A DNA stretch of 64,000 bases from Gordonia bronchialis DSM 43247. Lineage in GTDB: Bacteria > Actinomycetota > Actinomycetes > Mycobacteriales > Mycobacteriaceae. The notes under the pieces were generated by a model, which was given only the letters and a program-made list of their open reading frames with translations, did not search any database and was not told the DNA's origin. Of the stretch, positions 2,147 to 16,217 are shown piece after piece. The stretch spans positions 4,588,001-4,652,000 of the forward strand of contig NC_013441.1 in the NCBI RefSeq assembly GCF_000024785.1, written 5' to 3'. The translations under genes were made by a program, and so were the position numbers. How positions within the stretch are numbered: position 1 is the first letter of the stretch; each line of letters begins with the position of its first letter.

Positions 2147-3652
2147 ATGACTCCACTCTGGTTCCGGACATCTGATCGGCCCGCGGTACGCACCGGAGAT
2201 CTGCCGGTCGATCACTACGATCACGTGGTGATCGGCGGCGGGATCACCGGCCTGTCCGCGGCGCTCATGCTCGCCCGTTCCGGGCGGACCGTCGCCGTGG
2301 TCGAGGCCCGATACCTCGGTGCCGCCGCCACCGGTCATACCACGGGCAAGGTGTCGTTGCTGCAGGGCACGCGTTTGTCGTCGATCGGCGAGCATCACGG
2401 CCCGGAGGTGCTGACCGACTACCTCGAAGCCAATCGCGCAGCTCAGGAGTGGCTCCTGGACTACTGCCGCACTCGTGACCTCGGCGTGGAGATGCGGACT
2501 GCCGTCACGTTCGCGTCGACCCCCGACGGGGTGCGGCAGGTGGTGAAGGAAGAATCCGCGTGCCGACGTGCCGGGCTGAGTACCGAGCGAACGACGTGTC
2601 CCGAGCTGCCGTTCCGCACGAGCATCGGAATTGCTGTCGACGATCAGGCGCAGATCGACCCGATGGTGGTACTCGGGTCCCTCGCCGCCGACATCCGCGG
2701 GCTCGGCGGCGACGTGATCGAAGGTGTGCGGGTGCGTGGTGTCAAGCACCGCAAGGGCTATGTGCTCGACACCGAAGCCGGTGAGCTGTCTGCCGATTCG
2801 GTGATCGTCGCCACCGGCACGCCGTTCCTCGACCGCGGTGGGTTCTTCGCCCGGGTCCACGCCCGGCGTTCCTACGCGGCGGCGTTCGCCGTCGACGAGC
2901 CCATCCCCGAAGACATGTATCTGTCCGCCGACAGCCCGTCGGTGTCGCTGCGCACCGCTCCCGATCCGGACAATCCCGATGAAAGGCTGTTGCTGGTAGG
3001 CGGTTTCGGCCATGACGTCGGGCGGGTGCGGTCCGAACAATCCCACGTCGACGAGATGTTGGCCTGGACGCGTGACCGGTTCCCCACCGCCCGGCTGGTG
3101 GCGCGCTGGTCGGCCCAGGATTACGAGTCCATCGACGAATTACCTTATGTGGGACCGCTTCTCCCGGGCACCGATGGCCTGCAGATCGCCACGGGGTTCG
3201 CCAAGTGGGGTCTGACCAACGGGGTGGCCGGGGCGCTGGCCATCACCGGGCACCTGTTGGGGTCGCCGCTGCCGTGGGCCAGCACCTTTCGCCCGTGGCG
3301 CAACTCGGAGCTCGCATCGGTGACGTCGCTGGCGTCGAACAACGCGTCGGTGGCCGTGCAGATGGTGTCGGGCTATCTCGCGCTGCTCCGTCCCGTCGAC
3401 AAGGAGCCCCGCGAAGGTGCCGGGGCCGTGGGACATTCGGGTGTCTTACCGCGTGGGGTGTGCACCGTCGGCGGGTCCACCACCACCGTGGCACCGATCT
3501 GCACTCACCTCTACGGCGTGCTGCGCTGGAACGACGCCGAACGCAGTTGGGACTGCCCGCTGCACGGGTCGCGGTTCGATCATGCCGGACGGGTCCTCGA
3601 GGGTCCGGCCACCCGGCCGCTGCCCGGCGCCGGCACCGCGACGCCCGACTGA
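2147..3652 (+). CDS. FAD-dependent oxidoreductase with C-terminal Rieske domain
   Basis: The 501-residue protein begins with a Rossmann FAD-binding motif (VVIGGGITGLSAA, about residues 28-40) of the DAO/glycine-oxidase type. The C-terminal 65 residues form a Rieske [2Fe-2S] domain, with CTHLYG and CPLHGSRF providing the two Cys-His ligand pairs. Proteins of this layout (YhfW-like) oxidise unknown amines or amino acids. The ATG at 2147 was chosen because GGGAGGG precedes it and because the Rossmann fold follows at the usual distance; the frame is open much further upstream, inside paaX. It converges on the SDR gene at 3653 with no gap between the stop codons. Confidence 0.8.
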   Translation: MTPLWFRTSDRPAVRTGDLPVDHYDHVVIGGGITGLSAALMLARSGRTVAVVEARYLGAAATGHTTGKVSLLQGTRLSSIGEHHGPEVLTDYLEANRAAQEWLLDYCRTRDLGVEMRTAVTFASTPDGVRQVVKEESACRRAGLSTERTTCPELPFRTSIGIAVDDQAQIDPMVVLGSLAADIRGLGGDVIEGVRVRGVKHRKGYVLDTEAGELSADSVIVATGTPFLDRGGFFARVHARRSYAAAFAVDEPIPEDMYLSADSPSVSLRTAPDPDNPDERLLLVGGFGHDVGRVRSEQSHVDEMLAWTRDRFPTARLVARWSAQDYESIDELPYVGPLLPGTDGLQIATGFAKWGLTNGVAGALAITGHLLGSPLPWASTFRPWRNSELASVTSLASNNASVAVQMVSGYLALLRPVDKEPREGAGAVGHSGVLPRGVCTVGGSTTTVAPICTHLYGVLRWNDAERSWDCPLHGSRFDHAGRVLEGPATRPLPGAGTATPD

Positions 3653-4552
3653 TCATCGAGCCCTTCGGTGTCGGCGGGTCAGCACCGGCCGCACCACCGG
3701 GCCGATCACCGTCGCGATCGGCCGCTGGATCGCACCCGCACCCGCCCGGGTCGCCAGATCTATTGCGCGCGCGTCCAATCCGACCATGATGCGGTCACGT
3801 CCGGCGAGCACCCCGGCGAGGATGGCGGTGGCGGCCGCGGCCGGTCGGGTTCCTGGGAGTCGATGGTCGAATCCGTTGACGACTTCGTCGCGGATGTCGC
3901 CGACGGGGTATCGGGCGTCGCGGGCGATCGCGGTGTGCACCGCCCCGGGGTACACGATGTGTAGGCGGACCGGCGAGTCCGCGACCCGTAGTTCCGCCTG
4001 GACTCCCTCGCTGAAACCGCGGACAGCGAACTTCGACGCGCAGTAACTCGGCTGCATGGGGGAACCGAATAGGCCGAAGGCGCTCGAAGTGTTGACGATA
4101 CGTCCTCCGCCGCCGTTCTCCAGGTGGTCTCGAAAGGCGTTGGTGCCGTACATAACTCCCGACCAGTTCACGTCCATGATCCGGCGCGCATAGTCGGTAT
4201 CCTCGTCGAGAACGCCGGCGACCATCGTCGTGACCGCATTGTTGAATACCATCGACGGTGCCCCGTGCCGCTCGACCATGGCGTCGGCGTAGGCACGGAC
4301 AGCGGCCTCGTCGGCGACGTCGAGGCGATGGACCACGATCGCGGCGCCACGGCTCACACAGTGGTGCGCGGTGTCCTCGACAGACCGCGTGTCGAGGTCG
4401 GTCAGCGCGAGCGTGACACCGCACCTGCTCAGGCGCAGTGCGAGCGCACGACCCATGCCCGACCCGGCCCCGGTGATCACCACCGGTCGTCCGGCGCAGA
4501 GGCGTCGGAGACGGGTGTCGGTGGTGCGTGGATGCCAGATCGAGGAGGACAC
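3653..4552 (-). CDS. Short-chain dehydrogenase/reductase
   Basis: This 299-residue SDR uses NAD(P)(H) on an unknown alcohol or ketone. Visible motifs are the cofactor glycine loop TGAGSGMGR (about residues 27-35), the Ser before the catalytic site (NTSSAFG) and the catalytic YCASK. The usual NNAG motif reads NNAV, a small deviation. The C-terminal 60 residues are basic and alanine-rich, as in SDRs that associate with membranes. The start is a GTG without a clear ribosome site; a start a few codons further in cannot be excluded. The 3' end abuts the FAD/Rieske gene. Confidence 0.75.
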   Translation of the reverse strand: MSSSIWHPRTTDTRLRRLCAGRPVVITGAGSGMGRALALRLSRCGVTLALTDLDTRSVEDTAHHCVSRGAAIVVHRLDVADEAAVRAYADAMVERHGAPSMVFNNAVTTMVAGVLDEDTDYARRIMDVNWSGVMYGTNAFRDHLENGGGGRIVNTSSAFGLFGSPMQPSYCASKFAVRGFSEGVQAELRVADSPVRLHIVYPGAVHTAIARDARYPVGDIRDEVVNGFDHRLPGTRPAAAATAILAGVLAGRDRIMVGLDARAIDLATRAGAGAIQRPIATVIGPVVRPVLTRRHRRAR

Positions 4553-4783
4553 CGCACAGGACTACCCAGCTTCGAGTCACCCCACACACGCGATTGCCGA
4601 TGCGCCGGCAGAACCAGCAACTCCGGACCTCATCGGCTGGACTCAGTGTTGCCACCGCCAAAGGCAACGCCTGGTACCCATATTGACGTCTCATCTCCAG
4701 CAGCCGAGTTCCCGAGGCGGTCGGTCGGTGTCGTCCGATCGAAAACATCTGCAGGGCAGTAGATTCCGTGCGAGGAGACCTAC

Positions 4784-4801
4784 CCGAAGATTCTACTTCG
4801 G
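4784..4801. repeat. Inverted repeat upstream of the DUF222 gene
   Basis: CCGAAG (4784-4789) and CTTCGG (4796-4801) flank 6 nt, just upstream of the likely -35 box. It could be a short hairpin or a regulator site. The rest of 4553-4783 shows no gene or other recognisable feature. Confidence 0.35.
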
Positions 4802-4835
4802 ATCTTGTTGCGCACTCGACCGAAGCTGTGTAGCA

Positions 4836-4851
4836 TCGAACATGTATTCGA
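4836..4851 (+). promoter_or_regulatory. LexA/SOS box of the DUF222-HNH gene
   Basis: The sequence TCGAACATGTATTCGA matches the actinobacterial LexA operator TCGAAC-N4-GTTCGA with one mismatch. A candidate promoter (TTGCGC at 4808-4813, 17 nt, TAGCAT at 4831-4836) overlaps it, the expected geometry for repression. The box contains the ATG at 4842, which argues that translation starts further downstream at 4881. Some REP13E12 genes of M. tuberculosis are known to carry SOS boxes. Confidence 0.75.
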
Positions 4852-4880
4852 GAGACGGGCGGAGGGGGCCGGGGGTGAGC

Positions 4881-6449
4881 ATGAACGAGCAGTCATCGGG
4901 CGAGCAGTCGTTGTCGGTGGTTCCGGCGTTGCTCGCCGAGCTCGGTGGGGTGCTCGATCGCCTCGCCGCCGCTGACGTGTCGCAGTGCACCGATGCTGAG
5001 TTGGTGGACGTTGCGCGTACCCATGAGCAGTTGATCAACCGGATGTTGTTCGAGGGGGATCGGCAGATCGTGGCTCTCTCGGATCGGGGTGTGCCCCGCG
5101 CAATGGGTTACCGCAGTCTGACGAACTTCATGAATGTGGCGTTGCGGGTGTCGGATCCGGGCCGCCGCACAGATCAGATGGAGGCGACGGCCTGTTTCCG
5201 CCAGCTGTCCGGGGAGGTGTCCGACCCCAAGTATCCGACGCTGGCTGCCGGGTTTGCCGAAGGGGCGGTCGGCCCGGCGCATGTGCGTAAGGTCGCCGAG
5301 ATCTTGGACAAGATCCCGCACCGGTTGCCGCACGACCGTAAGGTCGCCGCCGAGAAGACGCTGGCGGAGTTGGCGCGTGAACACACCCCGGCCGAGTTGA
5401 CCACGCTGGGGATGCGGCTACTGGCCCACCTTGATCCCGATGGTGAGCTGACCGATGCGAAGGATCGGGCACGGCGACGTAATCTGTGGCTCAATCGGCA
5501 GGACGCGCAGAAGATGTCGAAGCTGACCGCCAACCTGGACCCGCAGACGCGTGCGTTGCTGGAGATGATGTTGGCGGTGTGGGCCAAACCGGGGATGAAC
5601 AACCCCGACGACCCGGACTCACCCTCGGGTGGTGAGGACGACGCCGACATCGAGCAGGTCAAGGCCGCCGCCGCCCGCGACTCGCGTTCACAGGCCCAAC
5701 GCAACCACGATGCGCTCAACGCGCTGTTGACGGCGGTGTTCGCCGACGGGCTGCTCGGCAAGACTCATCGTGGGTTGCCGGTGTCGTTGATCATCAAGGC
5801 CAACCTGGCGGATCTGATCCGGGAGTCGGGGTTGGCGACCACCGCGACCGGGTCGGTGATCCCCATCCCCGAGTTGATCGGGCTGGCCGGGCAGATTCAG
5901 CCGTACCTGGCGATCTTCGCCGATGCCACCGAGATTCCGCTGTACTTCGGTCGCGGCAAACGACTGGCCACCCTGGCGCAGCGGTTGGCGTCGCTGGCCC
6001 GCACCGATGGGGAGGTGTGCTCGGCGCCTGGTTGTGATCAGCCGGCGACCAATGTGGAGATCCATCACGCCGCGCTTGACTACGCCGAGGGCGGCACCAC
6101 CGACATCGTCGACCTCGCCCCGGCGTGTCCGTTCCACAACCGCCGAGTGGGTCACACGGTCGGGGAGTTCACCACCGGGGTCTACCGCGACGGCCCGCAT
6201 GCCGGACGGACCTGGTGGCGACGCAACCACCGGCCGGGAGCGCCGCCGAACCCGAAACGACTCAACACACGTCCCGACATCGCGACGCTGTATGAACACA
6301 ACCTCGGCCGTGTGCGCGAAACGATCCACGGCCCACCCGCCGACGACGGGCCACCGGCGCGCCTACACCTCACCGAGACGATCCACCCCCCGTCCTCGGT
6401 CGTCGAAACACGCCTGGCCGCCGAACTCTACCGACTCACCAGCCAATGA
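4881..6449 (+). CDS. DUF222 / HNH endonuclease, REP13E12 family
   Basis: The 522-residue protein has an N-terminal DUF222 region (about residues 20-330) and a C-terminal HNH nuclease fold with a zinc-type cysteine pair from C380 (CSAPGC), the IHH motif at H395-H396 and a final CPFHNR. These proteins are abundant in actinobacteria; their cellular role is unsettled, though HNH chemistry implies DNA cleavage. The start at ATG 4881 is preferred over ATG 4842 because the latter lies in the LexA box; a GGAGG lies about 13 nt before 4881, and GTG 4875 is also possible. SOS control suggests a DNA-damage role or a selfish-element history. Confidence 0.85.
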   Translation: MNEQSSGEQSLSVVPALLAELGGVLDRLAAADVSQCTDAELVDVARTHEQLINRMLFEGDRQIVALSDRGVPRAMGYRSLTNFMNVALRVSDPGRRTDQMEATACFRQLSGEVSDPKYPTLAAGFAEGAVGPAHVRKVAEILDKIPHRLPHDRKVAAEKTLAELAREHTPAELTTLGMRLLAHLDPDGELTDAKDRARRRNLWLNRQDAQKMSKLTANLDPQTRALLEMMLAVWAKPGMNNPDDPDSPSGGEDDADIEQVKAAAARDSRSQAQRNHDALNALLTAVFADGLLGKTHRGLPVSLIIKANLADLIRESGLATTATGSVIPIPELIGLAGQIQPYLAIFADATEIPLYFGRGKRLATLAQRLASLARTDGEVCSAPGCDQPATNVEIHHAALDYAEGGTTDIVDLAPACPFHNRRVGHTVGEFTTGVYRDGPHAGRTWWRRNHRPGAPPNPKRLNTRPDIATLYEHNLGRVRETIHGPPADDGPPARLHLTETIHPPSSVVETRLAAELYRLTSQ

Positions 6450-6697: not shown

Positions 6698-8284
6698 ATG
6701 CACGAGTCCGATGCCGTGGTGATCGGCGCAGGCCACAACGGCCTCATCGCCGCCATCGCGCTCGCGGACGCCGGATGGGATGTCACTGTCCTCGAAGCGC
6801 AGGACCAACCCGGCGGGGCGGTGCGCAGCGCCCAACTCACCCCCGGCTACGTGACCGACCTGTTCAGCGCGTTCTATCCGCTGACGCAGGCGTCCCCGGC
6901 ATTCACTGATCTGGACCTGGACGCACACGGATTGCGCTGGAGCCGTGCGCCCTTGGCGTTCGGACAGCCGGCGGGTCCCGGCGACACGCAGGCTGCGGTG
7001 GTCCATCCCGACCCGGCCGATACCGCCGCGCATCTCGCCGGCTTCGACGCGCACGATGGGCGCACCTGGCTGTCTTTGACCGAACAGTGGGCAACGATCC
7101 GCGACGGCATCATCGGAACCCTGTTCGGGCCGTTTCCACCGATGCGGGCGGTGACCTCGCTGTTGCGCACAAGCGGAACAGCGGACGCGGTGCGGCTCGC
7201 CCGATTCCTGCTGCTACCCGCCAATCGGATGGTGCGCGAACTGTTTCGCAGTGAGCAGGCGCGGCTGCTCATCCTGGGCAACGCCCTGCACGCCGACATT
7301 CCCCTCGACGCACCGGGCAGCGGCCTGATGGGCTATCTACTCACGATGCTCGGCCAGGACGTCGGCTTCCCGGTGCCGGTCGGCGGAGCGGGTGAGTTGT
7401 CGGCGGCACTCGTCCGGCGATGTGAGGCCGCCGGCGGCGAGGTGATCTGCTCGACGCCCGTCGAGGAAATCGAGGTGCGCAATGGTCGCGCCGTCGGCGT
7501 CGTCGACGCCGGCGGGCGGCATTGGCCGGCACGGCGAGCCGTCCTCGCCGACGTCGCGGCACCGACGCTCTACACCCGTCTCCTACCCCCGTCGGTGGTG
7601 CCGTCCCGCGTCCTCGATGACCTCGCGCACTTCGCCTGGGACACACCGGTGGTCAAGATCGACTACGCACTCAGCGGCAAGATCCCCTGGCGAAGCGAGA
7701 ATCTCGGCGGCGCCGGCACCGTCCATCTGGGCGGCGACATGAACGCCCTGGCCCGCGCCGGCGCCGACCTCGAGACCGGACGCATCCCCCGCGATCCGTT
7801 CCTACTCTTCGGTCAAATGACCACCGCGGACCCGACCCGTTCACCCGCCGGCACCGAAAGCGCCTGGTCCTACAGTCATCTGCCGCGCGGGGTCACCGAC
7901 GACGAGGCCGCCCACGAGTTGGCCGAGCGGATGGACGCCGTCCTGTCAGCGCATGCACCCGGTGTGTCATCGCTGATCGTGGACCGGCACCTCCAGACGC
8001 CGCGATCCCTGCAGGACTCCGACGCCAATCTGGTGGGCGGCGCGGTGAATGGCGGTACAGCCCAACTATTTCAGCAGCTCATCTTCCGTCCCACCCCGGG
8101 ACTCGGCGGCGCAAGCACGCCCGTGCGCGATCTGTACCTGTCCAGTGCCGCCGCGCATCCCGGGGGTGGCGTTCACGGGGCCTGCGGAGCCAACGCGGCG
8201 CGCGCCGCGCTGGCGGCCCACCGGACACTGCGCCGCCCGACCACCTATCTCACCCGAAAAGCGGTGCAGCGCTTGATGCGCTGA
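6698..8284 (+). CDS. Phytoene-dehydrogenase-like FAD oxidoreductase
   Basis: The 528-residue protein belongs to the CrtI/NAD(P)-binding Rossmann group. The FAD motif VVIGAGHNGLIAA (residues 6-18) is followed by LEAQDQPGGAVRS, the signature of carotenoid-dehydrogenase-like and all-trans-retinol-saturase-like enzymes. A C-terminal segment with LYLSSAAAHPGGGVHGACG closes the FAD site. The substrate is unknown; no other carotenoid gene is nearby. The ATG at 6698 has a GAGGAG ribosome site 5 nt upstream. A small SRPBCC gene follows after 30 nt, so the two are probably cotranscribed. Confidence 0.8.
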   Translation: MHESDAVVIGAGHNGLIAAIALADAGWDVTVLEAQDQPGGAVRSAQLTPGYVTDLFSAFYPLTQASPAFTDLDLDAHGLRWSRAPLAFGQPAGPGDTQAAVVHPDPADTAAHLAGFDAHDGRTWLSLTEQWATIRDGIIGTLFGPFPPMRAVTSLLRTSGTADAVRLARFLLLPANRMVRELFRSEQARLLILGNALHADIPLDAPGSGLMGYLLTMLGQDVGFPVPVGGAGELSAALVRRCEAAGGEVICSTPVEEIEVRNGRAVGVVDAGGRHWPARRAVLADVAAPTLYTRLLPPSVVPSRVLDDLAHFAWDTPVVKIDYALSGKIPWRSENLGGAGTVHLGGDMNALARAGADLETGRIPRDPFLLFGQMTTADPTRSPAGTESAWSYSHLPRGVTDDEAAHELAERMDAVLSAHAPGVSSLIVDRHLQTPRSLQDSDANLVGGAVNGGTAQLFQQLIFRPTPGLGGASTPVRDLYLSSAAAHPGGGVHGACGANAARAALAAHRTLRRPTTYLTRKAVQRLMR

Positions 8285-8314
8285 CCGTCGAATCCGTGTC
8301 ATGAGGAGATCAGT

Positions 8315-8749
8315 ATGACTTCAGTACAGCAGCACACCAGCGCGACGCCGGCCCAGGTCTGGTCGGTCCTGTCCAACGGATGGTTGTACGCGACATGGGT
8401 GGTGGGTACGTCGCGCATCCGTGACGTCGACCCCGACTGGCCGCAGGCCGGCACCAAGATCCACCATTCCGTCGGCCTGTGGCCGGCACTGCTCAACGAC
8501 GAGACCGAATCTCTCGAGTCGAAGGCCGGATACCTCGAATTATCCGCGGCGGCATCGCCCTTCGGTCGGGCACGCATTCGACTGACCATCGAGAAGGACG
8601 GCGACGGCTCACTCATCACGATGGACGAGTTCGTGGAAACGGCGCCCCTGCGCTGGATTCCGCCGGTCGTGCAGCGCACCGCCATGCGCCCGCGGCTGAA
8701 CGAATGCCTGCAACGACTGGCGATGCTGGCCGAGCGGAATGCGCGATGA
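8315..8749 (+). CDS. SRPBCC-family protein (polyketide cyclase/dehydrase-like)
   Basis: The 144-residue protein has the pattern of a START/SRPBCC lipid-binding fold: an N-terminal strand with SATPAQVWSVLSNGWLYATWV, a central SVGLWP segment and a C-terminal amphipathic helix ending in ERNAR. Such proteins bind hydrophobic ligands or act as cyclases or coenzyme-free enzymes. It has a strong ribosome site (GAGGAG, 8-9 nt before ATG) and follows the CrtI-like flavoprotein by 30 nt, suggesting that both act on the same hydrophobic substrate. The ligand cannot be told from sequence. Confidence 0.7.
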   Translation: MTSVQQHTSATPAQVWSVLSNGWLYATWVVGTSRIRDVDPDWPQAGTKIHHSVGLWPALLNDETESLESKAGYLELSAAASPFGRARIRLTIEKDGDGSLITMDEFVETAPLRWIPPVVQRTAMRPRLNECLQRLAMLAERNAR

Positions 8750-8774
8750 ATGGTTGCCGGCCGGGTCGCCACCT

Positions 8775-8870
8775 CACCTGCTGACCGAGCCGCCACCCCA
8801 CCTGCCGGTCGAGCCACCACCCCACCTGCCGGCCGAGCCACCATCCCACCTGCTGGTTGAGCCGCGACGG
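8775..8870. repeat. Four tandem copies of a 24-bp repeat
   Basis: Units start with CACCTG at 8775, 8799, 8823 and 8847 and diverge by a few bases each. The last unit runs into an inverted copy of the larger repeat described next. The stretch is open in one frame but only as a consequence of the repeat. Confidence 0.75.
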
Positions 8871-8904
8871 CGAGCGCCAGCGAGCCGACGCGCGTCGAAA
8901 CCAC
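8847..8904 (-). repeat. Inverted member of the GGTTTCGA...CTCAACCAG repeat family
   Basis: Read on the minus strand it begins with GTGGTTTCGA and ends with GCTCAACCAGCAGG, the same borders as the arrays at 8971 and 10109, with a different GC-rich palindromic centre. This border pattern marks dispersed intergenic repeats. Confidence 0.6.
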
Positions 8905-8970
8905 AAGCACCACAACAATGTCCGCAATCAGAAACAGTCAGTTGGTCACCGACATCGTCGCCTCGCCAGT

Positions 8971-9110
8971 GGTTTCGATACGGCACGGGCTCGTCCCTCG
9001 CTCGTGCCTACTCAACCAGCAAAAGAAGACCCGGACTGCCCCTCGCACGTGTCTACTCAACCAGCAAAAGAAGACCCGGACTGCCCCTCGCGCACGCCTA
9101 CTCAACCAGG
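8971..9110 (+). repeat. Tandem repeat array, 45-bp period
   Basis: One full unit (8971-9020, GGTTTCGATACGG to CTCAACCAGC) is followed by two partial units, with CTACTCAACC recurring at 9008, 9053 and 9098. Each unit contains a palindromic core around CTCG. The first 50 bp are nearly identical to the array at 10109, and both point the same way. The remaining 8905-8970 and 9111-9160 hold no gene. Confidence 0.8.
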
Positions 9111-9160
9111 AGAAGGAGCGGGCCATTCAACGCGAGTGCACGAGGTGGCGCCGAAGAGGT

Positions 9161-10093
9161 TCAGCCCGGGAGGGTTTCACCACCGATGGGGGCCAGCACC
9201 TCTCCGGTGTAGTACGACGACAGCTGGTCACTGGCGAAGAAGACGTAGGACGGGGCGATCTGGTCGGGTTGGGCCGCACGCTTCATGGGCACCTGTGCGC
9301 CGAAGTCGGCCACTTTGTCCGCCGGCATGGTCGCCGGAATGAGTGGGGTCCAAACCGGTCCCGGTGCAACGCAATTGACCCGGATCTTGCGCTCGAGGAG
9401 CGCCTGCGCCAGTGAATAGGTGAGCGCGATGACCGCGCCCTTGGTCGCCGAATAGTCGATCAGTTGTTTGTTCCCGCGAAGACCGTTGATCGATCCGGTG
9501 TTGATGATGGCGCCGCCACCGGTGAGGTGCGGCACGGCGGCGCGGGTGACATGAAAGAAGCTGTCGATGTTGACGTCGAAAGTCCGTCGCCACTGGTCGG
9601 GTTCGAGGTCGAGGAAGTCGTCCACCGGACTCTGAAAGGCCACGTTGTTGACCAGCAGATCGAGGCCACCAAGATCGTCGACGGTGCGTCGCACCACGTC
9701 GGCGCAATGGGACTGATCGGCAAGATCTCCCGGATACGCCCGACCGGACCGACCCTGCTCCTCGATCAGTTCGACGGTGCGCCGGGCGTCGTCATCCTCC
9801 TCGAGGTAAGCGATCGCCACGTCGGCGCCCTCCTTCGCGAACGCGACGGCAACCGCACGTCCGATCCCCGAATCACCGCCGGTGACAAGCGCTTTCCGTC
9901 CGGCCAGCAGATCGCGGCCGCGATAGTCACGCATCTCGTCGCGGGGCTGATCGGGCATGTCGGCGGTCCGGCCGGGGTAGTCGATTGTCTTTGCTTCGTG
10001 TTGCTCGTCGTCAGACATGTGCGTGGTGTACCCGAGGGCGGGTTCGCCAAACTCGCCGGTCTGTGGGTGGGTTGCTCGTCGGGTTGCGGACAT
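9161..10093 (-). CDS. Stress-type short-chain dehydrogenase (YhxC/YdaD-like)
   Basis: The 310-residue SDR has the long hydrophilic N-terminus of the general-stress SDR group, then RKALVTGGDSGIGRA (about residues 57-71), NNVAFQ in place of NNAG (usual in this subgroup), and the catalytic YSATK. Members accumulate under osmotic, salt or stationary-phase stress in other bacteria. The ATG at 10093 gives the expected length; the frame continues upstream into the repeat array, which was rejected as coding. The gene sits between two near-identical repeat arrays and next to sigF, in keeping with a stress function, but no SigF-type promoter is visible upstream. Confidence 0.8.
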   Translation of the reverse strand: MSATRRATHPQTGEFGEPALGYTTHMSDDEQHEAKTIDYPGRTADMPDQPRDEMRDYRGRDLLAGRKALVTGGDSGIGRAVAVAFAKEGADVAIAYLEEDDDARRTVELIEEQGRSGRAYPGDLADQSHCADVVRRTVDDLGGLDLLVNNVAFQSPVDDFLDLEPDQWRRTFDVNIDSFFHVTRAAVPHLTGGGAIINTGSINGLRGNKQLIDYSATKGAVIALTYSLAQALLERKIRVNCVAPGPVWTPLIPATMPADKVADFGAQVPMKRAAQPDQIAPSYVFFASDQLSSYYTGEVLAPIGGETLPG

Positions 10094-10108
10094 GGTCGGG
10101 TCGCCGGT

Positions 10109-10320
10109 GGTTTCGATACGGCACGGGCTCGTTCCTCGCTCGTACCTACTCAACCAGCAACAGAAGAACCCGGCTCGTTACTCGCTCGTGCCTACTCAAC
10201 CAGCACCAGAAGAACCCCGCTCGTACCTCGCCCGTGCCTACTCAACCAGCAACAGAAGAACCCGACTCGTTCCTCGCTCGCGCCTACTCAACCAGCAAGT
10301 GGAAGACGCCGGCTCGTACC
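10109..10320 (+). repeat. Tandem repeat array, 46-bp period
   Basis: A full unit at 10109-10158 is followed by units with CTACTCAACC at 10146, 10192, 10238 and 10284. The array ends at the stop codon of sigF (10323). Its first 55 bp match the array at 8971 with only a few differences. Confidence 0.8.
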
Positions 10321-10322
10321 TC

Positions 10323-11153
10323 TCAGGTAGTTGGCGCGTCGTCGTCGACGGTCAGTTGCTCCCGCAAGGTCTCCAGGGTGCGCGAGAGGAGCCGGGACAC
10401 GTGCATCTGTGAGATACCGACCCGTGCCGCGATCTCGCTCTGCGACATCGCATGGAAGAAGCGCAGGGTCACGATCTCACGTTCACGGTCGGGCAGCTGG
10501 TCGAGCACCGGGCGCAGGGTCACGAACTCGTCGATCTGGGCCAGTCGAGCGTCATCGTCGCCGAGGGTGTCACGGATCGAACGACCGTCGTCGTCCTCTG
10601 GCGTGGCGTCGATGGAACGCGCCTGGTAGGCCGATCGCGCCAGCAGACCGTCGATAACCTCGTCGACGGGCAGACCGAGATGGGCGGCGAGCTCACTCGG
10701 CCGCGGGGAGCGGCCGAGTCGCTGCACCAGTTCGTCGGTGGCCTTGCCGATGCTCAGGGAGGTTTCCTTGGCACGCCGCGGCACCCGGATAGCCCACATG
10801 CTGTCCCGAAAATGCCGGCGCACCTCGCCCATCACGGTCGGCACCGCGAACGACAGGAAGCTGTCGCCGCGCTCGCCGTCGAACCGGTCCACCGCGTTGA
10901 CCACCCCGATGCGCGCGACCTGCAGCAGATCGTCGAAGGGCTCACCGCGATCGCTGAATCGCCAGGCGACGTGTTCGGCCAGCGGCAGACATCGTTCGAT
11001 GATGTTGTCGCGCTTCTTTGCGTGGGCCGCCGCGTCGGTCTCCGCCGACAGTTCGCGCAGAGCGGCCACCACGTCGGCGTAATCGTCGCCGTGCCGCGCA
11101 CCGGTTCCACGTGACGCGTCGGTGCGCGATGGTGGGCGGGTCGTCGGGGGCAA
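10323..11153 (-). CDS. sigF: RNA polymerase sigma factor SigF
   Basis: The 276-residue protein is a group 3 sigma factor of the SigB/SigF type. Region 2 includes CLPLAEHVAWRFSDRGEP and DDLLQVARIGVVNAVDRF, then the strongly conserved VPTVMGEVRRHFRD; region 4 ends with SQSEIAARVGISQMHVSRLL. These segments closely parallel M. tuberculosis SigF. It directs RNA polymerase to stress and stationary-phase promoters and is held inactive by the anti-sigma factor RsbW/UsfX. The start is a TTG at 11153 with GGAG about 9 nt upstream; no in-frame ATG exists near the N-terminus. A SigF-like promoter upstream (11213-11238) suggests autoregulation. The 3' end touches the repeat array. Confidence 0.9.
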   Translation of the reverse strand: MPPTTRPPSRTDASRGTGARHGDDYADVVAALRELSAETDAAAHAKKRDNIIERCLPLAEHVAWRFSDRGEPFDDLLQVARIGVVNAVDRFDGERGDSFLSFAVPTVMGEVRRHFRDSMWAIRVPRRAKETSLSIGKATDELVQRLGRSPRPSELAAHLGLPVDEVIDGLLARSAYQARSIDATPEDDDGRSIRDTLGDDDARLAQIDEFVTLRPVLDQLPDREREIVTLRFFHAMSQSEIAARVGISQMHVSRLLSRTLETLREQLTVDDDAPTT

Positions 11154-11212: not shown

Positions 11213-11238
11213 CTACCCGGGCCTGCGTGTTTCCAAAC
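11213..11238 (-). promoter_or_regulatory. SigF-type promoter of sigF
   Basis: On the minus strand GTTT (complement of 11235-11238), 16 nt, then GGGTAG (complement of 11213-11218), matching the SigF pattern GTTT-N15/16-GGGTAT with one change. It lies about 60 nt before the TTG start. Confidence 0.6.
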
Positions 11239-11360
11239 TCCCCTTGTAGACCCGGCCACAGGTCCGTACGTTTGAGTCAGGCGGTTCAGTCAATAGCTGC
11301 ATGCGGACGGGCCGGTTCACACGGCCCCGTCGCACTCGTCCATCCTCGAGCGAGACGGAC

Positions 11361-11783
11361 ATGCACATGAGTCTTGACACCCATATTTCTCAGTTCCTCG
11401 ACGCACTTTCTGACGCACCGAGGTCGGCACAACCACCGAGCAGAGCGTCGGCGCCTACCATGACCGCGAGCAAACCCTATTGCCTGCAACGGTTTTCCGG
11501 CGAGATCGACATGCGCAACACCATCGACTTCGCTGCGGTGCTCGATCGGATTCTCGTCGAGCCACACGATCGCATCGTCATCGACATGACGTGTGTGGAC
11601 TTCGCCGGAACCTCGGCGCTCACCGTTCTGACCCAGTTCTGTGCGGCTGCCACCGAGAGTTCGACGCGGGTCGTCGTGGCCTGCGGACGGGCCGTCGCCC
11701 GCCCGATCGAGGCGTGCGGACTCGGCCCGATCGAAACCTACGACTCCGTCGACGCCGCCATCCGGGCCATCAGCACACCCTGA
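11361..11783 (+). CDS. STAS-domain protein, anti-sigma factor antagonist-like
   Basis: The C-terminal 105 residues form a STAS domain (FSGEIDMRNTIDF to the end), the fold of SpoIIAA/RsbV antagonists that release a sigma factor by binding its anti-sigma partner. It lies between sigF and rsbW, so it is a likely regulator of that pair. The phosphorylation loop reads DFAGTSALT rather than the canonical D-S-S-G, so the usual serine is missing and control may not depend on classic phosphorylation. The start is uncertain: ATG at 11361, 11367 and 11460 are all possible, the last giving a bare STAS domain of 107 residues. The stop is 10 nt from the converging rsbW gene. Confidence 0.7.
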   Translation: MHMSLDTHISQFLDALSDAPRSAQPPSRASAPTMTASKPYCLQRFSGEIDMRNTIDFAAVLDRILVEPHDRIVIDMTCVDFAGTSALTVLTQFCAAATESSTRVVVACGRAVARPIEACGLGPIETYDSVDAAIRAISTP

Positions 11784-11793
11784 TCCGCGCCGC

Positions 11794-12234
11794 TCACAAG
11801 GCGGTACGACGCTTGGCGAACCGGACGGTGACACGCCGGTCTCCACCTGAATCCACGTAGGTGAGGGTCTGCGTATCGGTGACGGTCTCCACGACACGCC
11901 AGCCGAACCCGGCGGTGTCCAGGTCGAGTCCGGTGCTGGTGCTGCCCTCGATCTGGCCCACCATGCCCAGCCGTCCGGGTCGGATCGTGACGGTCAGCCG
12001 CCGACCGGCTTCGGAGACGGCGATGAGCTGCGAGCAGATCTCGTCGACCCCGAGCTTGACGTCGGCGACGTCGTCGACGGTCCAATCGTCGAAGTAGAGG
12101 GTGCTCTCGACCACGGCGCGAATGATGGGCAGACGATCGGACTGCGCAGCCACCGACAGTTCCACCGGCGACTCCGCCGACTCCAGGAACTCGTCGATGA
12201 GCTGCTGCTCAACGGCGATGTCGTGCTCGACCAT
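11794..12234 (-). CDS. rsbW: Anti-sigma-F factor, RsbW/UsfX-type HATPase
   Basis: The 146-residue protein resembles M. tuberculosis UsfX (RsbW), the anti-SigF kinase-like protein. The segment DVADVKLGVDEICSQLI aligns with the UsfX N-box region, where the usual Asn of the HATPase N-box is also not conserved; GFGWRVVETVTDT is the G-box side. It binds SigF and blocks core polymerase access. The ATG at 12234 has a strong GAGGAGG ribosome site 5 nt upstream. A SigF-like promoter precedes it (12275-12300), giving a negative feedback loop. The gene is separated from sigF by the convergent STAS gene instead of forming the usual usfX-sigF operon. Confidence 0.8.
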   Translation of the reverse strand: MVEHDIAVEQQLIDEFLESAESPVELSVAAQSDRLPIIRAVVESTLYFDDWTVDDVADVKLGVDEICSQLIAVSEAGRRLTVTIRPGRLGMVGQIEGSTSTGLDLDTAGFGWRVVETVTDTQTLTYVDSGGDRRVTVRFAKRRTAL

Positions 12235-12274
12235 GGGTACCTCCTCGCGATCTGCTCGTCGCATCGTTGAACTG

Positions 12275-12300
12275 ATACCCGCATTGCGTCGAAGTGAAAC
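12275..12300 (-). promoter_or_regulatory. SigF-type promoter of rsbW
   Basis: On the minus strand GTTT (complement of 12297-12300), 16 nt, then GGGTAT (complement of 12275-12280), a perfect -10 of the SigF type. The start codon lies about 40 nt downstream. Confidence 0.65.
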
Positions 12301-12344: not shown

Positions 12345-12371
12345 GGTTTGAAACCGGGACGGTCCGGGAAC
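12345..12371 (+). promoter_or_regulatory. SigF/SigB-type promoter of the MTQ2-like gene
   Basis: GGTTT (12345-12349), 16 nt, GGGAAC (12366-12371). The -10 fits the broader SigB/SigF pattern GGGWA better than the strict GGGTAT. It is divergent from the rsbW promoter, 45 bp away. Confidence 0.45.
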
Positions 12372-12408
12372 CCGCCACCGGACGTCACCTTCTAGATGGG
12401 AGGCCCGC

Positions 12409-13158
12409 ATGGGTCACTTCACCGGAACCGCACCGACCGGCGCCGACGAGGCTCCGACGCCCGGCACCCCTGCCGTGGGCGTCCTGACGCGCCGACCGGG
12501 GACCGATGTGTATCAGCCGCAGGAGGATTCACACCTCTTGCGCGACGAGCTGCGGGACCACGACGTCAGCGGGGTCCGGGTGGCCGACCTGTGTACCGGA
12601 AGCGGCATCCTGGCTCTGGAGGCCGCGCTGCTGGGTGCGCGGTCTGTGCTGGCGGTCGATTCGTGTCCCGCGGCGGTGACCGCCGCCGCGACGCTCTGTC
12701 TCGACGCGCCCTGCCCGGTTCAGGTGGAACTCGACGACGTCACCGCGCTCACGGGCTACGGCCTGTTCGACTTCCTGACCTGCAATCCGCCCTACGTCCC
12801 CACCCCTGCGGACCCCGCCGAGGTGCGCGCCGCCGGGCCATCGCACGCCTGGGATGCGGGCACCGACGGCCGAGACGTCATCGACCGTCTGTGCGCGACC
12901 GCACCAGCGCTGCTCTCCCCCGGCGGCACCATGCTGCTGGTGCAATCGGAGTTCACCGGCGTGACCGCGACCCTCGACGCGCTGCGTCGGGCCGGTCTGT
13001 CCGCCGAGGTCGCGCGCACCCGGTACATCCCCTTCGGGCCGGTCCTCACCAGCCGCGCCACCTGGTTGGAGACCACCGGGCTTCTCGAATCGGGGCGACG
13101 CGTCGAAGAACTGGTGGTCATCCGCGCGGACAAGCCAGGGACAGGAATCCGACGATGA
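12409..13158 (+). CDS. HemK2/MTQ2-like class I methyltransferase
   Basis: The 249-residue protein carries the SAM-binding motif VADLCTGSGILALEAA (about residues 57-72) and the NPPYVP motif of N5-glutamine and amino-methyltransferases, which places it near HemK/PrmC and eukaryotic MTQ2. The short size and lack of a PrmC-type N-terminal helical domain fit the HemK2 group; the substrate may be a protein Gln, a nucleic acid base or a small molecule. It has a GGAGG ribosome site. It overlaps the CDGSH gene by 4 nt (ATGA), so the two are translationally coupled, and a SigF-like promoter precedes it. Confidence 0.75.
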   Translation: MGHFTGTAPTGADEAPTPGTPAVGVLTRRPGTDVYQPQEDSHLLRDELRDHDVSGVRVADLCTGSGILALEAALLGARSVLAVDSCPAAVTAAATLCLDAPCPVQVELDDVTALTGYGLFDFLTCNPPYVPTPADPAEVRAAGPSHAWDAGTDGRDVIDRLCATAPALLSPGGTMLLVQSEFTGVTATLDALRRAGLSAEVARTRYIPFGPVLTSRATWLETTGLLESGRRVEELVVIRADKPGTGIRR

Positions 13159-13361
13159 CCCGCTCCGACGAACCTCTCCGGGTACGGATGGTCCGTGGCG
13201 GCCCCACGCTCGTCCCTGGTCCCGTCGACATCGAACTGCCCGACGGCTCCCACGTGGCATCCGACCGGTTCATGGTGGCGCTGTGCTCGTGCGGGCGCAG
13301 TAAGCGATATCCGTTGTGCGACACCAGCCATCGGCGACGGAGGCGGGACAGCGCTAATTGA
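13155..13361 (+). CDS. CDGSH-type iron-sulfur protein
   Basis: The 68-residue protein ends with CSCGRSKRYPLCDTSH, matching the CDGSH pattern C-x-C-x2-S-x3-P-x-C-D-x2-H that binds a [2Fe-2S] cluster through three Cys and one His. CDGSH (mitoNEET-like) proteins move electrons or clusters and sense redox state. Coupled to the MTQ2-like methyltransferase by a 4-nt overlap and facing the HDO enzyme gene 48 bp away. It could be an electron donor or cluster source for either enzyme; that role is inferred from position only. Confidence 0.85.
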   Translation: MTRSDEPLRVRMVRGGPTLVPGPVDIELPDGSHVASDRFMVALCSCGRSKRYPLCDTSHRRRRRDSAN

Positions 13362-13400
13362 GTTCGGGCCAATTGAGTTCGGGCCGATTGAGTTCGGCCG
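13357..13400. repeat. Three tandem copies of a 15-bp repeat
   Basis: Units beginning ATTGAGTTCGG start at 13357, 13372 and 13387, the last one altered. The first contains the stop codon of the CDGSH gene; the array fills the gap to the convergent HDO gene. Confidence 0.75.
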
Positions 13401-13409
13401 GCGGGGCGG

Positions 13410-14405
13410 TCAGGGAGCGGAGACGGTACCCCAGCCTGACTGCAGGCCGCGGTCAAAGGCGTCTTCGACGACCAGGAAGCCGCGGATGCCGAAGACTATG
13501 TCGCTTTCCAGCTCGGGTTCGGTGGCCACCAGTTCGCCGACGACGTCGGTGCGCAGGACCTGCTCGTGTACGGCGTCGGCCTCGATGTGCTCGCGGTAGA
13601 AGTGCCTGCACGGCTCGGGGGCGTCGAGACGTTCGAGCCCGACGAGCAGTCGCGCCGACCCCGGCGACGACGTGATCTCGGTGGCCGCCAGATGCCCGAC
13701 GGTGGCGCCGCGCAGGGCCCGGTGCAGGCCGAAGCAGGACATCAGGTTGACCGGCGCCAGCGCCCACCCCGGAGCGGCGTCGAGGTAGCCGAGGTTGGTC
13801 GAATCGAGTCCGGCCGCGTCGAGGAGATCGGCGTAGAGCTCTTGGTGCACCGCGTCGCCGCGCCCGCCGCCGAACTCGTCGAACTCCACCGCCACGAAGG
13901 CTGCCTTGGACGTGCGGCGCAGTCGCGGGATGGCCCACGCATGCGGGTCGGCCTCTTTGAGGTGATACAGCGAGCGCATCCGGAAGTAGTCGCCGAACTG
14001 TTCCCAGGTTCCGTTGTCGCGCAGGTGAAATGAGGCACCATCACCGTCAACGGGTTCGGTGCTGAGTTCGGCCATCTCATGGGCTGCGCTGCCGGGTTCG
14101 CCGAGTGCGTCGACGTCGTCGCGCACCGCGGCCACAAAGGCCCGCTCGAGTTCGCGCCGGAAGGCGAGGATGTCCGGGTCCCATTCGCGGTCGTCGTCGA
14201 CGCCGACGAACCCCGCGTAGTGCAGTTCGTAGGCGGTGTAGAGGGCGAGTTGCAGATCGTCGCCGTACGGGTCGGCGTCGGCCACCTCGCGTACCGTCCC
14301 GATCGGTGTGCCGTGGGTGAGCGCGTCGATCAGCCGTTCCGACAGCGGACCACGTGCCGTGGGCATGGTGGCCTGCGTGGTGGGCGGGCGGGTGGTGGCG
14401 TGCAT
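13410..14405 (-). CDS. Iron-containing redox enzyme, heme-oxygenase-like (HDO) superfamily
   Basis: The 331-residue protein belongs to the heme-oxygenase-like diiron oxidase/oxygenase group (PF14518-like). Candidate metal ligands are E60 and H62 (YELHY), E174 (VEFDEFGGG), H187, H273, D277 and H280 (HIEADAVH), the E-H-E-H-D-H order known from UndA and SznF relatives. Such enzymes use two irons and O2 for decarboxylation, N-oxygenation or desaturation; the substrate is unknown here. ATG 14405 is preferred because AAGGA lies 7 nt upstream; ATG 14438 would add 11 residues. A near-perfect SigF promoter precedes it. It converges on the CDGSH gene, a possible partner. Confidence 0.8.
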   Translation of the reverse strand: MHATTRPPTTQATMPTARGPLSERLIDALTHGTPIGTVREVADADPYGDDLQLALYTAYELHYAGFVGVDDDREWDPDILAFRRELERAFVAAVRDDVDALGEPGSAAHEMAELSTEPVDGDGASFHLRDNGTWEQFGDYFRMRSLYHLKEADPHAWAIPRLRRTSKAAFVAVEFDEFGGGRGDAVHQELYADLLDAAGLDSTNLGYLDAAPGWALAPVNLMSCFGLHRALRGATVGHLAATEITSSPGSARLLVGLERLDAPEPCRHFYREHIEADAVHEQVLRTDVVGELVATEPELESDIVFGIRGFLVVEDAFDRGLQSGWGTVSAP

Positions 14406-14449
14406 GACGGTCCTTCGCTGTTCGGCGACGTGCTTCATCGGCTATCGGT

Positions 14450-14475
14450 ATACCCACGGACACTGCGACCAAACC
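14450..14475 (-). promoter_or_regulatory. SigF-type promoter of the HDO enzyme gene
   Basis: On the minus strand GGTTT (complement of 14471-14475), 15 nt, GGGTAT (complement of 14450-14455), a complete match to the mycobacterial SigF consensus, about 45 nt upstream of the chosen start codon. The promoter also implies that a start at 14438 would leave almost no leader, supporting 14405. Confidence 0.75.
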
Positions 14476-14501: not shown

Positions 14502-15257
14502 TCACTCCAGGTGATCGGCCTCCACGATCCGCCGGGCGACGTCGACGATGGGAACATTCGATTCCTGCGACAGCTGACGCAGAATCCCGAAGGCCCGCCC
14601 GGCGTCGGTATCGTAGCGCTCCATGATCATGCCCTTGGCCTGTCCGATGATGTCGCGGGAGGCGAGGGCGACACGGAACTGCTGTCCGCGGCGCGCGCCG
14701 GACAGTGCGATCGCGGCGTGCGCGGCCAGCCCCATGGCGACCTCGGTGACGGCCTCGTCAAAGGCCTCCGGTTTCTCAGAGTGCAGGTTGAGTGCGCCGA
14801 GTTCTACGTCGTTGACGACGAGCTGTATCGCCAGCGAGGAGCGGACCGGGGTCTGCTCTCCGACGGCGCGTACGAAGGCCGGCCAGCGGGTTTCGGTCAG
14901 TACGTCGGGGACGTACACCGTCTCTTCGGTCCAGATCGCCTCGAAACACGGCCCGTCACCGAAGTGGTGCTGCAGGTCGTCGATCTGTCGCGGAATCGGG
15001 CCGGTCTCGGCGGTTGATTCGAGTTCAGGGGGCGTCGAGCGGTGCCGCCTGCGGACCAGGGTGACGCCCGCATGATCGACACCCGGGATCAGTTCGACGG
15101 CCGCCTGGGTCACCTGACTCAACACGTCGTCGGGTGCAACCGAGACCTCTGAGGAGCCGTGCATGTCGCGGGCCAGACGCGCGATGGCGGCATGCAGCGT
15201 CGCGACCGACGGGGACACTTCGTCGGGTTCCTTGGCACTGGGTTCCTTGGCGCTCAC
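14502..15257 (-). CDS. GAF and ANTAR domain protein, RNA-binding antiterminator
   Basis: The 251-residue protein has a GAF sensor domain (about residues 40-180) and a C-terminal ANTAR domain (from ASRDIIGQAKGMIMERY to the end) that binds two-hairpin RNA structures and prevents transcription termination. GAF-ANTAR proteins are common in actinobacteria; the signal is unknown. The start is a GTG with AGGAG upstream. A 15-bp tandem duplication in the DNA gives SAKEPSAKEP at the N-terminus. It sits among SigF regulators, so a stress-response role is likely. No SigF-like promoter was seen for it. Confidence 0.85.
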   Translation of the reverse strand: MSAKEPSAKEPDEVSPSVATLHAAIARLARDMHGSSEVSVAPDDVLSQVTQAAVELIPGVDHAGVTLVRRRHRSTPPELESTAETGPIPRQIDDLQHHFGDGPCFEAIWTEETVYVPDVLTETRWPAFVRAVGEQTPVRSSLAIQLVVNDVELGALNLHSEKPEAFDEAVTEVAMGLAAHAAIALSGARRGQQFRVALASRDIIGQAKGMIMERYDTDAGRAFGILRQLSQESNVPIVDVARRIVEADHLE

Positions 15258-15370
15258 TCGTCAACCACTCCTCGAGATCGGCTTAGGCGACTACGCCTTC
15301 CATCGTTCCAGACTCATGGCGGACCGGCAGGCACACCGACGTCGGGCTCGGGTCCCATGCCGCGGCCGGT

Positions 15371-15395
15371 GTTTGGCGCCGACACAGACGGGTAT
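15371..15395 (+). promoter_or_regulatory. SigF-type promoter of the STAS-HATPase gene
   Basis: GTTT (15371-15374), 15 nt, GGGTAT (15390-15395), a full match to the SigF pattern, about 50 nt before the start codon. Confidence 0.7.
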
Positions 15396-15446
15396 GCGTG
15401 GTCGAGGACGAAACCGAGAACACGATTGCCGCAGAGAGAGGTGCCT

Positions 15447-16217
15447 GTGGGTGTCGACGGACTCTCGGTCAGGAGCACCCGGCACCACGGTGTGACGGTG
15501 CTGCACATTGTCGGTCAGCTGAACTCCGCGACGTACCTGACCATCCGTAATGCGATCGCGGCAACCGCGACCGAGACGACCGGAGCAGTGGTCGTGGACG
15601 CGCGATCGATGCGCGCCGCGTCGGATTCGGCGTGGACCGCGCTGAGCAGCGCGGCCTGGCTGGTCCGTGATTGGCCCGATGTGCCGGTCACCGTGGTCGC
15701 CGACGACGCTGCGCGACATCAGCTCGACACCGTCGGGGTGACCCGCCACATCGCCGTCTACGACGACCTCGCGACCGCGCTGGACTCGGTGCGCGCCGAG
15801 AACATGCCCGTGCGCGTCACTCACCGGGCCCGGCACGTGGTTCCACGTGGCATCGCGATGCCCATCGGCGCGGCCCGGCATTTCGTGGCCTCGACACTGC
15901 GCGACTGGCGTCGGCCACGGTACGTGGAACTGGCCCGGATGGTGACGACGGTGCTGGTCAGCAACGTCATCGAGCACACGCGTGACGACCCGGTGGTCCG
16001 AGTCGAATTGCACACGCCGGCACGGCTGGTGGTAGCGGTCGGCGACCACGATCCGCATCTCCCCGCGGTGACCGAGGACCGGCACGGTCACGTCCCGATC
16101 GCGTCGGGCCTGGCACTGCTGACGTCGTTGTCGCATCACTGGGGATGTACCCCCACCGGGTCGGGTAAGACGGTATGGGCGGTGGCCGGTGACCGTGAGG
16201 TCGAGCGGTTCCGCTGA
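15447..16217 (+). CDS. STAS and HATPase two-domain regulator of partner switching
   Basis: The 256-residue protein begins with a STAS-like domain (residues about 1-105) and ends with an anti-sigma-type HATPase (about 125-256; ELARMVTTVLVSNVIEHT resembles the N-box with a proper Asn). Fusions of this type act in SigF/SigB partner-switching networks, combining antagonist and kinase roles. The GTG at 15447 was chosen because AGAGAGG lies 6 nt upstream; GTG 15441 is close. The STAS phosphorylation loop lacks the canonical DS-x-G. A SigF promoter upstream makes it part of a feedback loop. Its direct partner cannot be told from sequence. Confidence 0.7.
   Translation: MGVDGLSVRSTRHHGVTVLHIVGQLNSATYLTIRNAIAATATETTGAVVVDARSMRAASDSAWTALSSAAWLVRDWPDVPVTVVADDAARHQLDTVGVTRHIAVYDDLATALDSVRAENMPVRVTHRARHVVPRGIAMPIGAARHFVASTLRDWRRPRYVELARMVTTVLVSNVIEHTRDDPVVRVELHTPARLVVAVGDHDPHLPAVTEDRHGHVPIASGLALLTSLSHHWGCTPTGSGKTVWAVAGDREVERFR

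Follow-up and report, generated by a model that had tools for sequence, protein, structure and literature searches.

We analyzed a 64,000-nucleotide stretch of the Gordonia bronchialis DSM 43247 genome (NC_013441.1, positions 4,588,001 to 4,652,000 of the forward strand; hereafter the window), in which three adjacent genes lie near a gene for a SigF-type sigma factor. These genes encode an MTQ2-like N-methyltransferase, a small CDGSH-type protein and a predicted diiron enzyme of the HDO superfamily (Table 1). The TGA of the methyltransferase gene (13156-13158) overlaps the ATG of the CDGSH gene (13155-13157) within an ATGA, and the 3′ ends of the CDGSH and HDO genes converge with 48 bp between them (13362-13409). 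A preliminary description of this DNA had reported the ATGA coupling, the gap, the facing HDO gene and a SigF-type motif before each unit, and had assigned two of the proteins to the HDO and CDGSH families. The coordinates were confirmed on the sequence, both motifs were located as described by sequence and pattern scan, and both family assignments held. In the whole genome, PF14518 (HDO) and PF09360 (CDGSH) each gave a single match, the latter at an expectation value (E) of 0.001.

Table 1. Features of the three-gene module and its surroundings (positions in the window unless a locus is named)
Feature	Position	Strand	Description and basis
MTQ2-like N-methyltransferase gene	12409-13158	+	249 amino acids; NPPY at residues 126-129
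CDGSH [2Fe-2S]-type protein gene	13155-13361	+	68 amino acids; variant motif CDTSH; basic C-terminal tail
HDO-superfamily diiron-type oxidase/oxygenase gene (predicted)	13410-14438	-	342 amino acids
Motif before methyltransferase-CDGSH unit	12345-12371 (core 12346-12370)	+	GGTTT-N16-GGGAAC; sequence and pattern scan
Motif before HDO gene	14450-14475 (core 14451-14474)	-	GGTTT-N15-GGGTAT; sequence and pattern scan
SigF-type sigma factor gene (sigF)	10323-11153	-	TIGR02980 above cut-off; SigF model NF005514 slightly below cut-off (353.6 vs 372)
STAS gene	11301-11783	+	beside sigF and the module
Gene with weak ATPase-domain match (below cut-off)	11794-12237	-	beside sigF and the module
Motif before sigF	11214-11238	-	pattern scan
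Motif before SDR-like gene (gene named by eye)	10029-10052	-	pattern scan
Motif before weak-ATPase gene	12276-12300	-	pattern scan
Motif inside the frame at 15159-16217	15371-15394	+	pattern scan
Luciferase-like monooxygenase genes in other loci	for example, L036 9226-10209, L068 4925-6010, L090 7185-8207		32 in L033-L110, and L171-L173

The HDO protein matched PF14518 with 175.3 bits (gathering cut-off, 28.9), and its predicted fold is of the heme-oxygenase-like helical type. Seven residues (E162, E188, H198, E254, H284, D288 and H291) are predicted metal ligands. By sequence alignment alone, the last six correspond to the core of three histidines and three carboxylates (3H/3C) in SznF, the N-methylarginine N-oxygenase of the streptozotocin pathway; E162 aligns with SznF E189 and with a glutamate of RohS, that is, with the extra glutamate of auxiliary helix 2 in 3H/4C enzymes. 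These positions were kept in 92 aligned rows (85 distinct genes) save for two gaps at D288, and E162 was present in all 92. The HDO protein is a predicted 3H/4C-type diiron enzyme with the seven-residue ligand set of SznF. Its best matches by sequence and by fold were the N-oxygenases HrmI, SznF and RohS, at 15-20% identity. SznF itself is only 19% identical and has a cupin domain of its own (PMC13108848), and the SznF literature covered here mentions neither a CDGSH partner nor a HemK2-like enzyme. HrmI and RohS are 15-19% identical, and natural-product genes do not recur at the module. These three also matched better, and over more of the chain, than the self-sacrificing HDOs of the CADD/NePabS type, which make p-aminobenzoate from their own tyrosine; an activity of that kind is the least probable of the alternatives that we considered.

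The CDGSH-type protein matched PF09360 with 60.3 bits (cut-off, 29.5). Its 3Cys-1His cluster ligands (C44, C46, C55 and H59) were invariant in 36 aligned sequences, and the ligand motif was present in all 37 CDGSH matches of the wider loci, which were picked by profile (one, from L175, is also among the 36). Glycine belongs to the CDGSH signature. The window protein has threonine at this position, and we therefore call it CDGSH-type; its PF09360 membership stands. CISD3 and mitoNEET share the family and the ligands with it, but the window protein differs from them in its 68-residue length, CDTSH motif, basic tail and oxygenase gene neighbor. In the CDGSH proteins of distant neighbors the motif is CDG[STA]H: beside distant or duplicated HDOs (L148-L164 and L196-L204) it takes this form, mostly together with CRCG, and beside mycobacterial-type HDOs it reads CD[TA]SH. 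This switch tracks the presence of the methyltransferase roughly, not strictly.

The methyltransferase matched the MTS domain PF05175 with 40.3 bits (cut-off, 23). TIGR00537, the HemK2/MTQ2 model, gave 84.7 bits against a cut-off of 87, hence the name MTQ2-like. NPPY126-129 was invariant in 33 aligned sequences. The nearest proteins by sequence and by fold were human KMT9/N6AMT1, which also gave the top matches to the N6AMT1-type fold, followed by the peptide N-methyltransferase AerE. The motifs VYxPQxDS and NPPY and the nearest solved fold are thus common to the window protein and HemK2/MTQ2/N6AMT1 (KMT9); in contrast, the identity is about 29%, the TIGR00537 score falls just short and the partner gene is CDGSH. 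From the likeness to KMT9/N6AMT1 and AerE and the NPPY motif, the methyl acceptor is likely to be nitrogen. Extension of the methyltransferase match in L033, L044 and L075 gave a frame with an internal stop codon; these genes may be broken, or the stops may be artefacts of the match.

We collected 110 HDO loci, 30 from relatives with short flanks (L001 is the window) and 80 from named contigs; the latter are the best 80 of 580 confirmed loci and are mostly mycobacterial. L011 and L032 are the same contig, so that the distinct figures are 109 loci, 90 with three genes and 88 convergent. None of the co-occurrence counts here and below is corrected for kinship. All three genes were present in 91 of the 110 loci, and in 89 of these 91 the HDO gene converges on the methyltransferase-CDGSH unit. 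In the DNA examined, the remaining 19 loci held CDGSH alone (4), the methyltransferase alone (2) or neither (13). Sixteen of these 19 belong to genomes that hold both partners. A whole-genome search of 12 of them, together with two genomes with the intact arrangement, gave both partners in 14/14; for the other seven, G004, G007, G029 and G049 have both, G051 has CDGSH only, and G040 and G055 have neither. The last two are order-level relatives with a full-length HDO and no CDGSH match at E 1e-6. On two Mycolicibacter chromosomes, the HDO gene lies more than 10 kb from the CDGSH and methyltransferase genes. Loci in which the HDO stands apart while all three genes are still in the genome were L068, L092, L095, L098 and L110 (Mycolicibacter) and L084, L094, L096 and L097 (Rhodococcoides/Rhodococcus).

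We then searched 61 relatives with all three proteins, 37 from the genus of the window and 24 others. Within the genus, all three proteins were found in the same 26 genomes and none in the other 11. Among the 24 others, eight had HDO at E 1e-20 or better (weaker matches in G044 and G057 and a second one in G043 were left uncounted); CDGSH lay within about 3 kb in six of the eight, and the methyltransferase was found in one, on a separate contig. Every CDGSH-positive relative was also HDO-positive (32/32). Five genomes of the genus carry a second HDO, each with a second, divergent CDGSH gene about 0.1-0.2 kb away; in two of the five, a second methyltransferase follows the second HDO, and the order is rearranged. 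Neighborhood alone would hardly produce joint duplication with a changed gene order.

Across 198 genomes sampled from the phylum (thresholds: HDO, E 1e-20; CDGSH, E 1e-6; methyltransferase, E 1e-30; at most 10, 30 and 14 candidates, respectively, from a loose first look were scored per genome, so that misses are possible), HDO was found in 34, CDGSH in 68 (27 of them HDO-positive) and the methyltransferase in 14. All 14 methyltransferase-positive genomes had HDO and CDGSH. For the 34 HDO genomes, CDGSH was within about 1.2 kb in 23, on another contig in four and not found in seven; ten of the 23 close pairs were outside the class of the window. Both HDO copies of G167 have a nearby CDGSH, as does one of two in G138 (within 6 kb). 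The gene orders included HDO-methyltransferase-CDGSH, methyltransferase-CDGSH-HDO on one strand, and HDO with CDGSH alone. HDO with CDGSH thus makes up the core, which the methyltransferase joins over only part of the range (14/34 phylum HDO genomes). The claim that the three are conserved neighbors was open to refutation by such a genome survey, and the trio passed it. We are confident that the three genes form one functional unit. The preliminary description had gone further, to a stress-induced pathway of all three; the conserved unit lends this partial support, but the methyltransferase is missing from most HDO genomes of the phylum sample.

These counts also bear on another arrangement, in which CDGSH would serve the methyltransferase, as Trm112 serves Mtq2, in modifying a translation factor or other protein, with HDO as a co-regulated neighbor. 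The overlap of the methyltransferase and CDGSH genes is exactly 4 bases in 54 of the 91 loci, and the nearest fold, KMT9/N6AMT1, was solved with TRMT112. However, CDGSH accompanies HDO in 5/7 non-genus relatives without the methyltransferase, in 3/3 second copies without a second methyltransferase and in 13/20 phylum HDO genomes without it. HDO is the constant partner, and we consider this arrangement improbable.

Next, we consider SigF. The window module carries SigF-type upstream promoter motifs, as members of the SigF regulon do. The published consensus is GGWWT-N16-17-GGGTAY (PMC7693655); the spacers in the module are 15 and 16, and many promoters in Table 1 of PMC4694148 have N15. Six SigF-type motifs lie in 5.4 kb around sigF, five of which fit a tighter pattern, and GTTT-N14-17-GGGWA occurred nine times in the window against 0.60 expected (100 shuffles). 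Five of the 27 genome-wide matches to GTTT-N15/16-GGGTA fall in the 5.4 kb around sigF and the module. The genome-wide total was not above that of a reversed-pattern control (30), and we dropped it as evidence.

In the 91 three-gene loci, the motif was found before HDO in 58, before the methyltransferase in 70, before both in 50 and before either in 78 (90 distinct loci). The methyltransferase figure allows GGGCA and rises with it; the pattern was widened in this way after viewing the sites and published GGGCA promoters. Means from 60 shuffles were 0.33 (maximum 2) on the HDO side and 0.73 (maximum 4) on the methyltransferase side. Antisense matches in the same stretches numbered six and 38, respectively. 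The figure of 70/91 on the methyltransferase side is therefore weakened; the 38 matches may reflect divergent promoters, such as the one before the weak-ATPase gene of the window. With the tight pattern GGG[TA]A in two sets of loci, the second mostly mycobacterial, the HDO side gave 15/30 and 45/79 (antisense 3 and 12; means of 200 shuffles 0.0 and 0.2), and the methyltransferase side gave 16/25 and 13/68 (antisense 3 and 14; means 0.1 and 0.3). Thus, on the methyltransferase side of the mostly mycobacterial set, the tight pattern was not above its antisense count. In the window, the HDO motif core ends 12 nucleotides before the ATG, and in 44 of the 58 loci with the motif it ends 9-14 nucleotides before the chosen HDO start. 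These distances suggest that the HDO mRNA may be leaderless or nearly so.

Neither unit has a SigF motif in 13 of the 91 loci: three Gordonia-type, three Dietzia, five Saccharomonospora/Amycolatopsis/Lentzea/Prauserella, one Williamsia and one Rhodococcoides. The richness of the sigF region in SigF-type motifs would suit a trio of stress genes with nothing in common but SigF control and location. However, mere sharing leaves the joint presence or absence and the joint duplication unaccounted for, and the genes are retained when far apart and in the 13 motif-free loci. We regard it as very improbable.

Published data on Mycobacterium smegmatis bear directly on this control. In Table 1 of PMC4694148, the fold-changes in a sigF mutant are -6.17/-5.69 for MSMEG_1771 ("methylase"), -5.91/-6.43 for MSMEG_1772 and -5.98/-4.09 for MSMEG_1773. 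The same source places GTTT-N15-GGGTA 29 bp before MSMEG_1771 and 696 bp before MSMEG_1772, and GTTT-N15-GGGAA 11 bp before MSMEG_1773. In the M. porcinum/M. peregrinum loci (L053, L056 and L067), the motif precedes CDGSH by 687-702 bp and HDO by 13 bp. As in the module loci, the "methylase" gene comes first, and the promoter distances are close to those found there. From annotation, these distances and likeness, MSMEG_1771-1773 are almost certainly the orthologues of the trio. An exact match to the published 32-base MSMEG_1771 promoter was not found in 396 genomes sampled from one genus (g23). In the parts of the published report covered here, the genes appear as a SigF-dependent methylase and two hypothetical proteins, with no families named. 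Promoter sequences are also given in PMC5445863, MSMEG_1773 is among the changed proteins of a pafBC mutant (PMC5656591), and the SigF regulon is up when respiration is inhibited (PMC7693655).

The SigF link of the preliminary description is thus borne out by conserved motifs and the M. smegmatis data, with the 13 motif-free loci as exceptions. It knew of no described function for the combination; in the open-licence literature, where absence is no proof, we found no paper naming the trio or linking CDGSH to HDO. The strong SigF dependence of the genes that appear to be its orthologues has been on record since 2015 (PMC4694148). What seems new is the conserved unit of known families, which the papers searched do not describe as such; its regulation was partly known already.

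A diiron oxygenase left oxidized at the end of turnover needs re-reduction before it binds O2 again. The neighbor that most constantly accompanies the HDO is small, of 2Fe-2S type and opposite in charge (median isoelectric points, 5.1 for HDO, n = 110, and 9.6 for CDGSH, n = 95, range 5.2-11.4), and electron donation is therefore its simplest role. Thus, we propose that CDGSH would dock on HDO and donate electrons that return the oxidized iron center to the O2-reactive diferrous state. The HDO would most likely N-oxygenate, or else otherwise oxidize, a common amino acid, a small metabolite or the side chain of a protein. The HemK2-like enzyme, often translationally coupled to CDGSH, would N-methylate the same substrate before or after the oxidation in genomes of the Mycobacterium, Gordonia, Dietzia and Amycolatopsis types, among others; in those of the Gordonia and Mycobacterium types, SigF would turn on both units. 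The nearest characterized relatives are N-oxygenases and the third gene encodes an N-methyltransferase, so that our leading guess is nitrogen chemistry on a common substrate. We lean slightly towards electron donation from CDGSH to HDO taken by itself. N-oxygenation as the chemistry of the HDO is plausible but more doubtful than donation, and the mechanism as a whole, with its transfer, N-oxygenation, step order and substrate, is a tentative proposal, in which our confidence is a little short of even.

An HDO served by a dedicated redox partner is known from mangotoxin biosynthesis: MboA-MboB pairs an HDO with an iron-sulfur-containing redox protein and was put forward as possibly the first dedicated pair of this kind (PMC13185094). 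Unlike CDGSH, MboB belongs to the NAD(P)H flavin-2Fe-2S reductases, and the product of MboA-MboB is an alkyne.

Adjacency and co-occurrence fit equally well a CDGSH protein that donates metal or a cluster in assembly of the HDO site rather than electrons, and HDO diiron sites are labile (PMC13108848). However, a 2Fe-2S protein would lose its cluster for every two irons supplied, and the need for a dedicated donor is not mentioned for other HDOs in the literature covered; we give this role a minor chance. Rubrerythrin with rubredoxin offers another comparison, in which HDO and CDGSH would form a substrate-free O2 or peroxide reductase that clears oxidant under stress. The 3H/4C enzyme SznF does reach a peroxo state without substrate (PMC13108848), and the literature connects the SigF regulon with oxidative and respiratory stress (PMC4694148 and PMC7693655). 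Nevertheless, a reductase leaves the co-occurring methyltransferase unaccounted for, and the HDOs that are named in the review sections covered act on an organic substrate or on a side chain of their own (PMC13108848). We consider it decidedly unlikely.

Several observations weigh against the proposed CDGSH-reduced N-oxygenase. No CDGSH was found at E 1e-6 in 7/34 phylum HDO genomes and 2/34 HDO-positive relatives, and one of the two HDO copies of G138 (L150) has none within 6 kb; therefore, some HDOs cope without CDGSH or with a more distant one. Conversely, this HDO is missing from 41 of the 68 phylum genomes with CDGSH, so that the CDGSH class has other jobs. Other HDOs are reported to run on chemical reductants (PMC13185094). 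Charge complementarity between HDO and CDGSH is weak evidence. Because HrmI is a 3H/3C enzyme (PMC13108848) and the ligand set of the window HDO is predicted to be 3H/4C, the N-oxygenase assignment rests on distant homology. In 118 loci, we saw no biosynthetic gene shared throughout the range that might point to a substrate, and the most frequent other neighbor, a luciferase-like gene described below, may be either a fourth member in mycobacteria or a case of mere synteny.

If the proposal is true, the CDGSH gene beside HDO, within and beyond the class of the window, would add a second type of HDO partner, much commoner than the first, and the HDO would be a candidate client for a bacterial CDGSH protein. 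Three strongly SigF-dependent M. smegmatis genes would gain a function, and the synthetic product of the SigF stress regulon would become a testable question. About 12 HDOs have been functionally validated among more than 10,000 sequences, according to a 2026 review (PMC13108848). In the boldest form of the proposal, which is speculative and to which we give only a small chance, the module would be the first self-contained HDO-CDGSH couple, in which SigF-switched N-methylation by the HemK2-like enzyme and N-oxygenation by the SznF-like HDO, both of one common amino acid or protein side chain, yield an N-oxidized stress metabolite or protein mark of mycobacteria, Gordonia and other actinobacteria. 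Such a three-protein pathway would resemble SznE-SznF without the natural-product cluster.

In the wider neighborhood, we compared the open reading frames (ORFs) of 24 loci with the 9,116 ORFs of 118 loci; ORFs shorter than 90 amino acids, among them many CDGSH genes, were left out. HDO recurred in 118 loci, the methyltransferase in 77 and CDGSH-frame ORFs in up to 64. A luciferase-like monooxygenase (PF00296), 67-89% identical, was found in 35 of the 118, of Mycobacterium type where the record was named. In Mycolicibacter loci, it stays beside HDO after CDGSH and the methyltransferase have moved away. A further family, without assignment, recurs in 21-26 of the 118 loci. Apart from the luciferase-like gene, 20 neighbors scanned with Pfam (genes called by a rough rule on GC content at third codon positions) varied by locus and included thioesterase, RsbU/SpoIIE, DJ-1, GCS2 and fumarase; a larger biosynthetic cluster was set aside on this ground. 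None of the 120 HDO homologues listed with their Pfam domains, out of 7,810 scored, was a fusion with CDGSH. For example, in L061 (Mycobacterium) the module is flanked by an RsbU/SpoIIE-PAS-ATPase regulator (3165-5972) and a DJ-1/PfpI protein (8026-8646). The Figure 2 legend of PMC11854999 mentions CDGSH and GAF/ANTAR genes near some Rhodococcus genes for alkB, another diiron enzyme. Finally, in the window, a CLLNQQ / PTQPA-like unit is repeated across several frames of overlapping ORF translations at about 8740-9415 and 9985-10410, which suggests short repeated DNA around the SDR-like gene.

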